Below are positions 25,042-32,772 of a DNA stretch of 64,000 bases, piece by piece. The notes beneath the pieces are model-generated. The model searched no databases, was not told the DNA's origin, and saw only the letters and a program-made list of their open reading frames with translations. Position numbers and translations under genes: made by a program. Source of the DNA: Nitrospira sp. (GTDB taxonomy: Bacteria > Nitrospirota > Nitrospiria > Nitrospirales > Nitrospiraceae); NCBI GenBank assembly GCA_030123565.1, contig CP126122.1:3238800-3302799 (forward strand), given 5' to 3'. How positions within the stretch are numbered: position 1 is the first letter of the stretch; every line of letters starts with the position of its first letter.

Positions 25042-25733
25042 ACGAATACCTCCCGCCCCCTTTACGTTATCATGAAAAGGTAAAGCTCCTCAATGGAATG
25101 CAGTACCAAGGGCACCCCCGAGTTGCGGCCCGACACTACTATCAAATGTTTGGGATCCCAACGCCCGCAGCCCGCTTCTCGCCGGCGATACCGACAACTT
25201 TCTCTCTCAGGTGAATACACGTACCATATGACGATGGAAGCGTATGGCACGTGGCCCGTAGCACATGGCAGAATGACCAGCGAAGTGAATCCCACCGGAG
25301 CGTCGTTCATGACTCACATCCGACCAGCCGCCGAAGCCGATTTCGAGGCGATCCTCCAGGTACAGCAGGCCGCCTTCCTTGTAGAATGGCTCAATTGTTC
25401 CCCAGGTGTGCACTTCAGACTTCAAATCCTCCTTCCAATCTTGCTCATTTCTCCCGCAAGGAGGCCTCGTCATCCTCAACTGCGCGCGTCGAACGAGCGT
25501 ATCGTTTGCCTCCGGTAGAATCTGGTGATCAGATGCGCGCGTGCCGCGAGGACGAGGACCGAGCAGGCTAGCCCTTCGCTGCGCGATCACCCGGCGGCCC
25601 TCCGGACCTGGAAGCTCGACCATGTGGAACGCGTCGGGCGCTCGCTCCCTGCGACCTGGCGCCTGGTACAGGCTGGAGGAAGTCTTACCCCATGGTGTGG
25701 TATGCTGAGTGTGCCAAGAGACGGGGGATCACC
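25042..25733. other. Gene-poor stretch with truncated GNAT copy and GC-rich repeat
   Basis: Only two recognisable items lie here: a truncated GNAT gene start (25283-25378) and a copy of the dispersed GC-rich repeat (25532-25560). Other open frames lack motifs and ribosome binding sites. Confidence 0.55.
25283..25378 (+). pseudogene. Truncated 5' copy of the GNAT gene at 27149
   Basis: The leader and first 23 codons (MTHIRPAAEADFEAILQVQQ AAF after ATG 25309) nearly match those of the intact gene at 27149-27217. Similarity ends sharply after the codons for QQAAF. The downstream sequence is unrelated, so this is a broken duplicate, not a functional acetyltransferase. Confidence 0.82.
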
Positions 25734-27032: not shown

Positions 27033-27148
27033 GCGGAGTAACCGGATCGCCCTTCACTGCGCGCCTCTGCGCCTCTGATGGAACACAGGCATCACGCTCA
27101 CTGTCTTCACCTTCGCAAGGTGAGGTGAATCCAAGCGGAGTACCGTTC

Positions 27149-27634
27149 ATGATTCACATCAGACCAGCCACCGAAACCGATTTCGAGGCGATCCTCCAGG
27201 TGCAGCAGGCCGCCTTCGGCGAATATGCGGATGTTTATGAAGTGAGCGCCTGGACCACAGAAACCCTCGATAGCCTCCGGCACGATGCCAAGGAGAAACG
27301 GATTTTCGTAGCGGAGGAGGATGGCCTCATTGTCGGATCGGTGCGCTGTTGGACCGTGGCCGGGGTCTGCGTGATCAGGCTGTTATCGGTGAATCCCGCC
27401 CATCAGAAACATGGAGTGGGAACAGCGCTGATGCGGGAAGTCGAACGGGTCACGGCCGACGCCCACAAGTTCTATGCCTGCACCATGCTGCACACAGCCA
27501 GGAACGTTCAGTTTTTCCTCAATCTCGGCTACAAGGCTGAAACCCTGCTGCCCAACCACTACCACCACCTGGATCTCATCTGCTTCGCTAAATATCGCGA
27601 ATCGGCGAAGACCGCGACGCCCCCTGCAGCCTAA
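27149..27634 (+). CDS. GNAT family N-acetyltransferase
   Basis: 161 aa. ATG 27149 has GGAG about 8 nt upstream; the frame is open further upstream, but that part overlaps the preceding gene and is not protein-like. The fold begins IHIRPATETDFEAILQVQQAAF, motif A is LLSVNPAHQKHGVGTALM, and the C-terminus has ARNVQFFLNLGYKAE. The substrate is unknown. A truncated copy of its start lies 1.8 kb upstream. Confidence 0.88.
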   Translation: MIHIRPATETDFEAILQVQQAAFGEYADVYEVSAWTTETLDSLRHDAKEKRIFVAEEDGLIVGSVRCWTVAGVCVIRLLSVNPAHQKHGVGTALMREVERVTADAHKFYACTMLHTARNVQFFLNLGYKAETLLPNHYHHLDLICFAKYRESAKTATPPAA

Positions 27635-28586: not shown

Positions 28587-28897
28587 TCGCACTCTCTCCC
28601 GGCCAGCCACCTCGCCCTCTCCCTCCCCTGTATCTCTTTCAATACCGCCGGTTATTCTTTTGGATACAGTTTTCGTGTGCGGGCGCCGCCTCGTAAAAAT
28701 ACTTCCAATCCTATCATCCTCAAAAATAAGCGAAGCGCTCTGCTCGCTCCTATCGGCACAAGCCTTGCTCATTCACCGATGCATCGGTAACTGAACCACC
28801 CCGACAATTTCTGTTCGCGAACCGCATCCGAAAGGATCGCGTCGCGAACCTGTCGAACGTTCCGAACGAACAGGCTCGCCTAACCGAGGAGGTATCT
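28587..28897. other. Intergenic region upstream of the M6 protease operon
   Basis: No gene seen. It holds a 14-bp perfect palindrome at 28775-28788 (accgat/gcatcggt) and a gttcgcgaac palindrome near 28810, both possible protein-binding sites, and ends in the strong ribosome binding site GAGGAGG of the downstream gene. Confidence 0.45.
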
Positions 28898-30697
28898 ATG
28901 GAATCGAGGAAGATCGTGCGCTGTTACTCCGAACGCTGTCTGGTGGCTCCCCATCCAGATCTGAAGAAGAAGCTGATGGCCGACCTGGCGAAGGCCAAAG
29001 GCCGGGCCAGGACCGCGTTTTCCAACATGCTCCGTATTTCCCGCAGCAAACCAGTCGGCATGGATGACGGCTTGATCTTCCCCGGCGACCTGTATCCCCT
29101 CGGGACATCGGCCCGCACGGTCCGGAACGGCGCGCTCGACCGTGCCCCGCTCCGCGGGACCGTCCGCGTTATCGTCGTGCTGGTCGATTTTTCCGACAAG
29201 CCCATGACCAAGACGAAGAAGCATTTCGAGGATCTGTTCTTTTCGATCGGCGTCCTGCCGAACGGCAGCGTGCGTGACTACTACAAAGAAGTCACCCACG
29301 GCCTGATCGATATGGTCGGCGAAGTCGTCGGGCCCTTCCGCATGCCCAAGAAGCTCAGCGAATATGCGCACGGCGACTCCGGCACGGGCAATGTCGAACC
29401 CAATGCCCGCACCATGGCGAAAGACGCCGCCGACGCGGCCAATCCCACCGTCAATTTCGCGCAATACGACAACGACGGCAACGGGTTCGTGGATGCCTTC
29501 GTGGTCCTGCATGCCGGCGGGGGCGCGGAACAAACGGGAAACGTCAACGATATCTGGTCCCACAAATGGGTCCTGTCCGGCGGTGCGTACAACGCCGATG
29601 GGACGAAGATCTATGCTTATCTGACCGTGCCTGAAGACTGCAAGATCGGGGTCTGCTGCCACGAACTCGGGCACTTGATCTTCGGATGGCCGGACCTCTA
29701 CGACACCGACTACTCGTCCGAGGGCCTGGGCAACTGGTGCCTCATGGCGGGCGGCAGCTGGAACGGCGGCGGCGACATCCCGGCGCATCCCTCCGCCTGG
29801 TGCAAGGTCAACCAGGGCTGGGTCTCCGTGGTGAACCAGACGACCAACCAAACCGTCTCGATCACCGACGTGAAGACCGGGTATACCGTCTACCGGCTCT
29901 GGAAGGATGGGACGCCGGGCAGCGAGTATTTTCTCGTCGAGAACCGCCAGAAAACGGCCTATGACAAGATGCTCCCAGGCCCAGGCCTGCTCGTCTACCA
30001 TGTCGACGAAGCCGTCAGCGGCAACTCGAACGAGAACCATCCGCAGGTCGCATTGATGCAGGCGGACGGGTTGAAGCACCTCACCACCGGCGCCAACCGC
30101 GGCGATGCCGGCGATCCCTATCCTGGATCGGCCAACAACGTGACCTTCAACGCCACCTCCAACCCGAACTCGAAGTCCTACGGCAACGTGGACACCTGCG
30201 TCTCCATCACCAATATCGGCGCGTCCGGCGCCACGATGACGGCGCGCCTGGCCGTCAAGTGCAAGATCAAAGAGATCAAGGAAAAGGAACGGAAAGAATT
30301 CATCAAGGAGAAGGAACGCAAGGAGTTCATCAAAGAGAAGGACCGGAAAGAGGGGTTCAAAGAGATCAAAGAAAAAGAGATCAAGGAACGGAAGGAATCC
30401 CTTAAGGAGAAGGAGAAAGACTTCAAGGAGATCAAGGAAAAGGACAAGGACCTCGTCGAGGGACGGCCGCCCGGTGGGTTGAGGACAGCCGGGGCCGAAC
30501 CGAACCTGGAGGACCGTGTCTCCCGCCTCGAATCCATGATGCAGGGCATCGAGCCCTACATCACGGGCGACCTTCGCCCGGATCTACGGGAAAGCGCGCT
30601 GGCCTCGGAATCCGATTGCGAGGAAATGCAGGCACGCATGCGGGAAGGCGCGGCGGAGGCTAAACGGCTCTACGACAGTAAGATGCGGGAGGGCTGA
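28898..30697 (+). CDS. M6-family metalloprotease with Lys/Glu-rich tail
   Basis: 599 aa. Start ATG 28898 has GAGGAGG 6 nt upstream. The catalytic zinc motif is HELGH at residues 255-259 followed by GWPDLYD, the M6 (immune inhibitor A) pattern HExxHxxGxxD. Upstream RVIVVLVDFSDKP and later GSWNGGGD and YFLVENRQ also match M6. Residues about 455-520 are an almost pure K/E/I/R/D/F repeat (units like IKEKERKEF), then a coiled-coil-like end (DRVSRLESMM). No signal peptide is evident, unusual for a family that is normally secreted. It heads an operon with two ATP-grasp-like genes. Confidence 0.88.
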   Translation: MESRKIVRCYSERCLVAPHPDLKKKLMADLAKAKGRARTAFSNMLRISRSKPVGMDDGLIFPGDLYPLGTSARTVRNGALDRAPLRGTVRVIVVLVDFSDKPMTKTKKHFEDLFFSIGVLPNGSVRDYYKEVTHGLIDMVGEVVGPFRMPKKLSEYAHGDSGTGNVEPNARTMAKDAADAANPTVNFAQYDNDGNGFVDAFVVLHAGGGAEQTGNVNDIWSHKWVLSGGAYNADGTKIYAYLTVPEDCKIGVCCHELGHLIFGWPDLYDTDYSSEGLGNWCLMAGGSWNGGGDIPAHPSAWCKVNQGWVSVVNQTTNQTVSITDVKTGYTVYRLWKDGTPGSEYFLVENRQKTAYDKMLPGPGLLVYHVDEAVSGNSNENHPQVALMQADGLKHLTTGANRGDAGDPYPGSANNVTFNATSNPNSKSYGNVDTCVSITNIGASGATMTARLAVKCKIKEIKEKERKEFIKEKERKEFIKEKDRKEGFKEIKEKEIKERKESLKEKEKDFKEIKEKDKDLVEGRPPGGLRTAGAEPNLEDRVSRLESMMQGIEPYITGDLRPDLRESALASESDCEEMQARMREGAAEAKRLYDSKMREG

Positions 30698-30702
30698 GCC
30701 TT

Positions 30703-31539
30703 ATGCAGGCGCCTTGCCTCGTCCTGTGTCCCATCCACGACCGGTCCGCCGTGCGGGTCTACTGTGCCCTGCGCAAGCGACTCGGAACGGACGCGGTCGA
30801 GTTGGTCTCCGGCGAGGAGCTGGCCCTGGCTCCTCGCTGGAGCCACGCCCTGGACTCCGGTAGCGTCGGCACGGAGTTGACGCTGGCCGACGGCAGACAA
30901 ATAGAGAGCGACCGGGTGGGGGTGGTCTTCCAGCGCATCCAACAACTCGACATGCCCCAGTTCGAAGGATCGAAGCCAGACGATCGCGAGTACGCCGTCA
31001 CGGAGATGCAGGCCTTGCTGTTGAGCTGGCTCGCCGGCCTGTCCTGCCCGGTCGTGAACCGGACCGGTCCGCGCGGCCTCTGCGGGGCCGACCGCAGCCG
31101 ATTGGAATGGATGAAACTGGCGGCAGCCGCCGGCCTGCCGACCAGGGGATTCGAGCTGGTCAGCGAGGCCCGTCGATTCCATCGCCCGGAGTTCGTGCCG
31201 CATCTGGCGGTCAACAACGGAACTGGGGCGGATGATCCGCCGCCGATCCTGCGGCCGGAACTCCTGGGGCGGGCTCCCGCACAGTACCTAGAGCCGGTGA
31301 ATGGACCGCAGCGCCGCGTCCTCATCGCCGGCGGACGTTGCCTCGGCCTTCCGCCCGGCGCAAGTGCGGAGGCCTGCGCGAGGCTGGCGGACCTGAGCGG
31401 AGACCATCTCCTGGAGATCCATCTGGGAATGGTGCGAGGGGCGTGGCGGTTCTGCGGCGCTACGCCCCTGCCGGAAATTCCGCCGGAGGCGGCGGACTTC
31501 GTGGCGGATTCGCTGGCAGAGATGAGGGTGGCGGCATGA
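30703..31539 (+). CDS. Unknown protein, probable ATP-grasp partner
   Basis: 278 aa starting 5 nt after the protease gene, with GGGAGG upstream. The N-terminal part (LVLCPIHDRSAVRVYCALRKRL, VVFQRIQQLD, DREYAVTEMQALLLSWLAGL, VVNRTGPRGLCG) resembles the pre-ATP-grasp domain of peptide-ligase-like proteins; the C-terminal half (YLEPVNGPQRRVLIAGG, LLEIHLGM) looks like a reduced ATP-grasp core lacking the clear Lys and ExN metal ligands. Its stop overlaps the next gene start (ATGA). It may be a scaffold or regulatory subunit (inference). Confidence 0.78.
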   Translation: MQAPCLVLCPIHDRSAVRVYCALRKRLGTDAVELVSGEELALAPRWSHALDSGSVGTELTLADGRQIESDRVGVVFQRIQQLDMPQFEGSKPDDREYAVTEMQALLLSWLAGLSCPVVNRTGPRGLCGADRSRLEWMKLAAAAGLPTRGFELVSEARRFHRPEFVPHLAVNNGTGADDPPPILRPELLGRAPAQYLEPVNGPQRRVLIAGGRCLGLPPGASAEACARLADLSGDHLLEIHLGMVRGAWRFCGATPLPEIPPEAADFVADSLAEMRVAA

Positions 31540-32663
31540 TCCTGTTCTGCGGGGTCCCATCGGAAGAGCCCCTCCGGCTCGCGATCGAGGCGGCGGAGAA
31601 ACGAGGGCTGCCGTTTCTGTTGCTCAACCAGCGGGAGTCGCACTACCTCGGCCTGCGGCTGACCGTCACCAACGAGGTCTTCGACGGTACGTTGGCCGTC
31701 GGCGAGGCGACCTATCGCCTGTCGGACATTCAAGGGATCTACTCCCGGATGATCGACAGCACCGTGCTTCCGGAAAACCGGACATTCCGCCATCGGACGC
31801 CGGACCAGGCCGCAGTCGAACGTTCACGGGTCTTTCACGAGGCGTTCTGTCAATGGCTGGAGTTGGCGGACTGCCGCGTGCTCAACCGTCCCGGACCGAT
31901 GGCGTCCAACATGTCGAAGCCCTACCAATGCCGGTTGATCAGCCGTTGCGGATTCGAGATTCCGACCACGTTGGTGACGAACGACCCCGATGAAGCAGTG
32001 GCGTTCCACCGGAAGCACGGCCGGATCATTTTCAAGAGCATCAGCTCGATTCGCTCCATCGTGCGCGAGTTCGATCCGAACGATCGGCGGGCGTTGCAGA
32101 GGCTGCGGCACCTCCCGACTCAATTCCAGGCCTTCGTGCCCGGCGTCAACCTACGCGTGCACACGGCCGGAACGCGCCTCTTCGCCACGGAGATCGTGAC
32201 CGGCGCCACCGACTATCGCTATGCGGCGCGGGACGGCCAGGACCTGACCATGAGGCCGATCGAGCTGCCGGACGACATCGCCGCCCGTTGCCTCCGCCTC
32301 TCGCAGGAGTTGAACCTTCCCCTCTGCGGCATCGACCTCAAACGGACTCCGGACGGCGCCTATTATTGTTTCGAGGTGAACCCTTCTCCCGCCTACAGTT
32401 TCTATGAGGAACAGACCGGCCAGCCTATCGCCGAGGCCATTGTGGATTACCTCCTCGCGCCCTACAATGAGAGCCATGGCAGCTCCGATCGTCGAAAATT
32501 GGACGGATTTGGAAGGGCTGGTGCAGTCGGTTTCGCCGGCAGCGGACGTGGCCCAGCACGTCGTCGTGGAGATTCGCGTGCGCCGCGCCCAAGCGGTGGA
32601 AGGATTTGCGAACCTGCTCGCGGACGCGGCGGGAACGGTCGTGCGGGTGTACGTGGCGAATGA
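31536..32663 (+). CDS. ATP-grasp ligase (RimK-like)
   Basis: 375 aa from ATG 31536, 4-nt overlap with the preceding stop. Pre-ATP-grasp N-terminus, then ATP-binding Lys in IIFKSISSIRSIV, hinge FQAFVPGVNLRVHTAG, DLK and the metal-binding FEVNPSP motif. Such enzymes form amide bonds through acyl-phosphates, on peptides or small molecules. The core ends at about residue 312 (YLLAPYN); the remaining about 63 residues are Gly/Arg-rich and read through the next gene in another frame, a 188-nt overlap that is probably non-functional or the result of a frameshift. Confidence 0.87.
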   Translation: MILFCGVPSEEPLRLAIEAAEKRGLPFLLLNQRESHYLGLRLTVTNEVFDGTLAVGEATYRLSDIQGIYSRMIDSTVLPENRTFRHRTPDQAAVERSRVFHEAFCQWLELADCRVLNRPGPMASNMSKPYQCRLISRCGFEIPTTLVTNDPDEAVAFHRKHGRIIFKSISSIRSIVREFDPNDRRALQRLRHLPTQFQAFVPGVNLRVHTAGTRLFATEIVTGATDYRYAARDGQDLTMRPIELPDDIAARCLRLSQELNLPLCGIDLKRTPDGAYYCFEVNPSPAYSFYEEQTGQPIAEAIVDYLLAPYNESHGSSDRRKLDGFGRAGAVGFAGSGRGPARRRGDSRAPRPSGGRICEPARGRGGNGRAGVRGE

Positions 32664-32772
32664 GTCGGCCAAGCAGGCGGGGCTGGCTGCCGGAGCACAG
32701 GTCCGTTGCCGGGTCCGGCGCGGGGGTCCGCACAGGATCTTCGCCCACCCCACCGAGATCCGCGTCGGCTAG
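32476..32772 (+). CDS. Small protein of unknown function, end of the ATP-grasp operon
   Basis: 98 aa from ATG 32476, starting inside the 3' end of the ATP-grasp frame. A beta-rich C-terminus (TVVRVYVANESAKQAGLAAGAQVRCRVRRGG) follows a helix (AQAVEGFANLLADAA). The GLAAGAQVRCRVR segment looks like a small beta-barrel or OB-like edge. No family recognised. Codon use is normal for the region, supporting a real gene rather than a shadow. Confidence 0.68.
   Translation: MAAPIVENWTDLEGLVQSVSPAADVAQHVVVEIRVRRAQAVEGFANLLADAAGTVVRVYVANESAKQAGLAAGAQVRCRVRRGGPHRIFAHPTEIRVG

Follow-up and report, generated by a model that had tools for sequence, protein, structure and literature searches.

A lysine- and acid-rich tail as the probable multicore substrate of a two-subunit, graspetide-type ATP-grasp enzyme in Nitrospira

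The K/E-rich tail of an M6 metalloprotease encoded by Nitrospira is very probably the substrate of the two adjoining ATP-grasp proteins, as an earlier note on this DNA had guessed, because what is conserved alongside the ATP-grasp pair is the tail and a short motif behind it, and not the protease. Judging from sequence, we think it probable that the ribosome makes this tail as a multicore substrate and that a two-subunit ATP-grasp enzyme cross-links its lysines to acidic residues. The system is real, widespread, and coherent, with an enzyme of a known type and a substrate of an apparently new type.

A four-gene operon with a tailed M6 protease

The window (the whole stretch of 64,000 nucleotides analyzed here, from a 4.6 Mb genome whose close relatives are Nitrospira) contains a four-gene operon at 28898-32772 on the forward strand, encoding an M6 protease, two ATP-grasp proteins, and an OB-fold protein. 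It lies between a lytic-transglycosylase-like gene on one side and a glycoside-hydrolase-like gene on the other, both named from their translations. Its features are:

28886-28892, forward strand: likely ribosome-binding site GAGGAGG before the M6 gene, from direct reading of the sequence
28898-30697, forward strand: M6 metalloprotease with a C-terminal K/E-rich tail, 599 aa (TIGR03296, PF05547); proposed substrate
29174-30001, forward strand: M6 catalytic domain, residues 93-368 as matched by TIGR03296, with HELGH at about 29660-29674
30257-30460, forward strand: K-[E/D] dyad repeat region, from composition; proposed cross-linked core
30554-30586, forward strand: recognition motif PYITGDLRPDL, C-terminal to the core (motif family, motif profile)
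30703-31539, forward strand: degenerate, shortened ATP-grasp, 278 aa (P0002; hhalign); proposed partner subunit
31536-32663, forward strand: active ATP-grasp of the graspetide-synthetase type (P0003), conserved domain 31536-32468, the remainder being a lineage-specific extension
32476-32772, forward strand: OB-fold protein, 98 aa, tied to the M6 variant (AF2, fold matches)

All four genes described in the earlier note (the tailed M6 protease, two ATP-grasp proteins, and a small protein) are present. Its picture of tight packing, with a few bases of gap or overlap, is right for the conserved domains and wrong for the whole ORF 31536-32663: gene 4 begins at 32476, and the P0003 ORF runs into that region in another frame with its last ~64 codons (32469-32663). 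An extension past the conserved end is also found in genome G006 and is absent from loci L014 and L147; the run-on in the window and G006 looks like the loss of a stop codon. Upstream of the operon, a 96-nt direct repeat (89%; 25282-25377 and 27122-27217) spans the start of an acetyltransferase-like (GNAT) gene, and its upstream copy looks like a truncated duplicate.

The first gene product matches TIGR03296 at E=1.7e-77 and the Pfam M6 model PF05547 at 2.5e-25, and its zinc motif, HExxH in M6 peptidases, is intact as HELGH, which is invariant across 10 M6 relatives. Neither a signal peptide nor a hydrophobic stretch was found in this protein, and an M6 paralogue in a Thioploca genome differs from it in this respect. 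The tail holds 24 Lys and 23 Asp or Glu in 88 residues; an acid adjoins 92% of the lysines, and Ser and Thr are nearly absent.

An active ATP-grasp near graspetide synthetases and its degenerate paralogue

P0003 is, on the evidence of its sequence, an intact ATP-grasp nearest to graspetide synthetases and not to RimK. All 26 relatives have the same residue at each of nine catalytic or substrate-site positions (K, K, R, H, D, R, D, E, N), and a profile built from them and searched against the PDB gave PsnB at 4.6e-43, CdnC at 8.4e-39, MdnC at 3.1e-35, and RimK at 3.3e-14, the solved graspetide synthetases (PsnB, CdnC, MdnC, MdnB) together spanning ~5e-43 to 3e-30. The earlier description as a complete RimK-like ATP-grasp was thus right about the intact enzyme and too loose in calling it RimK-like, because graspetide synthetases outscore RimK by far. 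All 26 relatives also match the TIGR04187, MvdC, and MvdD models; P0003 itself falls below their curated cut-offs (133.6 of 350 bits for TIGR04187, 93.2 of 425 for MvdC, TIGR04185, and 83.4 of 475 for MvdD, TIGR04184), as it does for the RimK-family model TIGR00768 (46.2 against 143.4 bits). A DxR motif accompanies the ATP-grasp catalytic residues and is not exclusive to graspetide enzymes.

An enzyme of this fold could instead add amino acids such as glutamates to the tail, in the manner of RimK on ribosomal protein S6, with no cross-linking. RimK-family models match every member too, the fold is common to both, and DxR alone does not discriminate, as DFR also occurs in a RimK-type protein of the set. 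RimK extends a C-terminal Glu. The wide lead of graspetide synthetases in the profile scores, and K-acid dyads that repeat along the core, unlike such a C-terminal extension, make amino-acid addition unlikely and leave lysine-acid cross-linking as the reading we prefer.

P0002 on its own gave no family match in profile searches. Its family aligns to the active ATP-grasp family with an hhalign probability of 99.9% (E=1.6e-33) and lacks the catalytic residues in that alignment, so that the protein previously noted as ATP-grasp-like with no clear catalytic residues is a degenerate paralogue of the active family. The two genes stand in tandem in most loci. The graspetide rosaritide needs a partner protein, MirC (PMC13097080), and by analogy the dead ATP-grasp may play a similar partner role.

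The tail is conserved and the protease is not

A scan of 84,980 species genomes returned 43 further loci, in Nitrospirota, Proteobacteria, Verrucomicrobia, Bacteroidota, Actinobacteria, Chloroflexi, cyanobacteria, Methanomicrobiales, and others. Across these loci, conservation extends to the ATP-grasp pair and not to the protease. The constant partner of the pair bears K-[D/E] repeats, the motif F[IV]xxx[LE]RP[DE], or both. Among the 43 loci, the tail is joined to an M6 protease in 11, to an S8 protease in 1, and to a trypsin-like (NAL1-like) protease in 5; it stands alone in four alphaproteobacteria, where the motif follows the core, and in other loci, where the motif comes first. Sphingopyxis sp. 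H073 (L023) has a natural stand-alone form. The view of the system as a protease plus a ligase is therefore not supported. The earlier note would count it as refuted if the ATP-grasp genes occurred mostly without the protease, and M6 occurs in 14 of the 66 loci examined; elsewhere the tail stands alone or is fused to S8, trypsin-like, or non-protease proteins.

In locus L146 (genome G234), adjacent genes encode a tailed subtilase (S8) and a tailed B-lectin protein, whose post-core segments match each other at E=4e-22; those of M6 and B-lectin proteins match at 3e-7, and in both comparisons the N-terminal parts give no match. Further Nitrospirota carriers are Kelch, DUF6519, esterase-like, and contractile-injection (CIS13) proteins and an unassigned protein. 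Tailed DUF6519 proteins occur in L160 and L164, with a similar one in L159, and in L163 (4639-6564) a CIS13-family protein with a K/E tail and a FIRPGERPD motif adjoins the ATP-grasp pair. The best explanation of these fusions is that the protease domain is cargo of the tail. We rejected contractile-injection cargo as a general role, as a phage-type sheath is found in 18 of 30 tailed genomes and archaeal and other genomes lack one.

The tail might only recruit the enzyme, its K/E stretch being a charged helical spacer, while the modified site lies in the catalytic domain or in a different molecule. K/E stretches can form single helices, and a low-confidence AF2 model of the M6 protein (pLDDT 44) draws the tail as helical. 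Yet stand-alone substrates consist of core and motif and nothing else, the N-terminal domains of the carriers otherwise have nothing in common, and the Pro/Gly-rich tails of L048, L053, and L039 cannot be one helix, which also rules out the simpler idea that the K/E tail is just a helix. A recruiting tail thus seems quite improbable next to one that is itself modified.

Related loci vary the arrangement. In a further clade, the motif is joined to a PqqD domain, with transglutaminase-like and HPr-kinase-like neighbors; because these PqqD-fused relatives have the motif and no K/E core, the core is not universal. Five loci initially had no recognized motif protein, and one of them, in Nostoc, has the motif fused to the enzyme. 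Sister graspetide-type loci with no degenerate partner (L008:7482-8984, L149:3968-5356, and L152:4339-5673, each adjacent to an ATP-grasp) encode an M43 protease and a tyrosinase with C-terminal TLKFRDD-type repeats, and the M43, tyrosinase, and astacin proteins carry PF[IS]L[AS]TPHH near the C-terminus; these loci speak for the principle as well, with a core and motif of their own.

Two other sets of neighbors were seen. Unassigned proteins sharing a PL..L....F..LLNH-like stretch lie directly before ATP-grasp pairs that have no recognized tail (L046:7536-8261 and L151:4260-4625) and are possibly another type of substrate. Stand-alone 137-aa proteins with an N-terminal PFITLFAE and TKTxxxRESDD repeats precede the ATP-grasp in L153 (3191-3604) and L154 (3482-3895) and are candidate multicore graspetide precursors.

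Tail and motif are tied to the ATP-grasp

The 44 loci contain 1444 ORFs of 120 aa or longer; a K/E-rich 40-aa segment occurs in 26 of them, and each of these is the substrate neighbor. The motif F[IV]xxx[LEQ..]RP is found in 33 of 1781 locus ORFs, 32 of which adjoin the ATP-grasp or, in Nostoc, lie within it (L033:3567-4928, a single ORF made up of ATP-grasp, recognition motif, and PqqD domain). Among 395 Nitrospirota genomes, 31 of which carry the ATP-grasp, there are 7 motif matches, none of them more than about 3 kb from an ATP-grasp. Five M6 paralogues encoded at other places in locus-bearing genomes have neither tail nor motif nor an ATP-grasp. A cofactor pathway, the other possibility raised at the outset, found no counterpart in family profile searches: none of the operon genes matched a known cofactor family.

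In 20 genomes with a tail and C-terminal motif, a motif profile gives exactly one strong match per genome, at the ATP-grasp locus; the window genome likewise gives one. This bears on the view, held for branches 7/8 in PMC8939145 and group 32 in PMC13097080, that the protease matures or releases a separate graspetide precursor encoded elsewhere. RiPP leaders are indeed processed by proteases, but the tail persists while the protease family changes or disappears, the same tail sits on non-protease fusions, and the motif matches once per genome at this locus; a separate precursor is accordingly very unlikely, and the tail itself remains the preferred substrate.

In a tree of the ATP-grasp, the 21 loci whose motif lies C-terminal to the core group in a single supported clade. 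The P[FY]I motif is C-terminal in the window clade and N-terminal in the sister loci, so the window clade departs from the N-terminal leader with a Phhx(1,2)h motif that about half of known graspetide precursors have. A C-terminal recognition motif is plausible by analogy: in an engineered graspetide, the leader remains functional after transfer to the C-terminus (PMC13003496).

Tail composition and a proposed mechanism

Overall, the tails have Lys and acids at ~1:1 and few Ser or Thr, and some are Pro/Gly-rich. K[DE] dyads number 253 against 125 expected, and KK pairs 14 against 123 expected, with acid pairs likewise almost absent, the expectations coming from within-tail shuffles that disregard repeat structure and so inflate z-scores. 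From the ~1:1 ratio, the dyad excess, and the scarcity of Ser and Thr, we infer Lys as donor and Glu/Asp as acceptor, forming isopeptide rings of the kind shown for corallotide (PMC13097080), the exact topology of which is beyond what core spacing can tell.

In the mechanism we propose, the active ATP-grasp, aided by its dead paralogue, would bind P[FY]IxxxLRPDL behind the core; Glu/Asp side chains, activated with ATP, would then form isopeptide bonds (macrolactams) with the side chains of nearby lysines, and a flexible K-[E/D] repeat would become a cross-linked and probably protease-resistant tail. In other genomes, the same would happen to tails on other enzymes, lectins, or injection-system proteins, or to tails alone. 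The finished tail could serve for protection or display. A bolder variant, in which the ATP-grasp pair links tails between molecules and builds covalent multi-enzyme assemblies of proteases, lectins, and injection-system parts through ATP-costing isopeptide bonds, is in our judgment a long shot.

A small OB-fold protein accompanies the M6 variant

Gene 4 is present in 14 of 14 M6 loci and in 0 of 52 others, and therefore belongs with the M6 domain and not with the tail chemistry. An OB fold is predicted (AF2 pLDDT 92). A Foldseek search gave no match at E<=0.001, and the best match in a VIA search, to RecO/CusF, had a Z of 9.4. The fold would suit a TIMP/NTR-type metalloprotease inhibitor, whose NTR module is related to the OB fold, but many unrelated OB folds match equally well. 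Our guess is that the protein works for the M6 domain, perhaps inhibiting it or acting as its chaperone.

Relation to known systems and implications

The window system has in common with PsnB (7drm), CdnC (7mgv), and MdnC/MdnB (5ig9, 5ig8) the ATP-grasp fold and catalytic residues and, if the tail is the substrate as proposed, multicore substrates with a conserved recognition motif. It differs in that a full-size enzyme would carry the substrate as its tail, the motif is C-terminal to the core in this clade, the core consists of K-[D/E] with few Ser or Thr, a degenerate ATP-grasp partner is encoded, and the enzyme lies under the curated cut-offs of that class. Corallotide (group 15), with KxxxD Lys-to-Asp isopeptides in five repeats (PMC13097080), resembles it in having a large precursor with several repeats, the Lys-acid linkage here being a proposed one; corallotide differs in its N-terminal leader and added hydroxylase, and a fused enzyme is not reported (PMC13097080).

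The earlier note called the system possibly undescribed, which stands for the tail as precursor and not for the loci, since such loci were described, with no precursor identified, by Makarova et al. 2022 (PMC8939145). Their branches 7/8 have peptidases of unrelated families, proposed to cut peptides from other proteins, and branch 8 additionally has a truncated ATP-grasp. The window locus likewise combines a peptidase with a truncated ATP-grasp that lacks catalytic residues and, compared by description, likely is branch 8; the peptidases thought there to supply peptides look here like the precursors themselves. In a 2026 survey, the diverse proteases neighboring group 32 are assigned to maturation or resistance, and groups 34 and 35 have long repeat precursors (PMC13097080). 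The likeness of these three groups to the window system is again one of description, and our reading of the tailed proteases suggests that the proteins beside such ATP-grasps are the precursors and not maturation factors. Our searches of the open-access literature turned up nothing on tailed enzymes serving as graspetide substrates.

If this is true, graspetide-type enzymes also modify full-size enzymes post-translationally, beyond small natural products, and they do so with a natural C-terminal recognition motif, of which the open-access literature has only an engineered rearrangement. The tail would then be a portable tag for protein cross-linking. Found together with its motif on enzymes of unrelated kinds across many bacteria and archaea, it would supply the precursors of one graspetide-enzyme branch and, with them, those missing from ATP-grasp branches that published surveys have left open.
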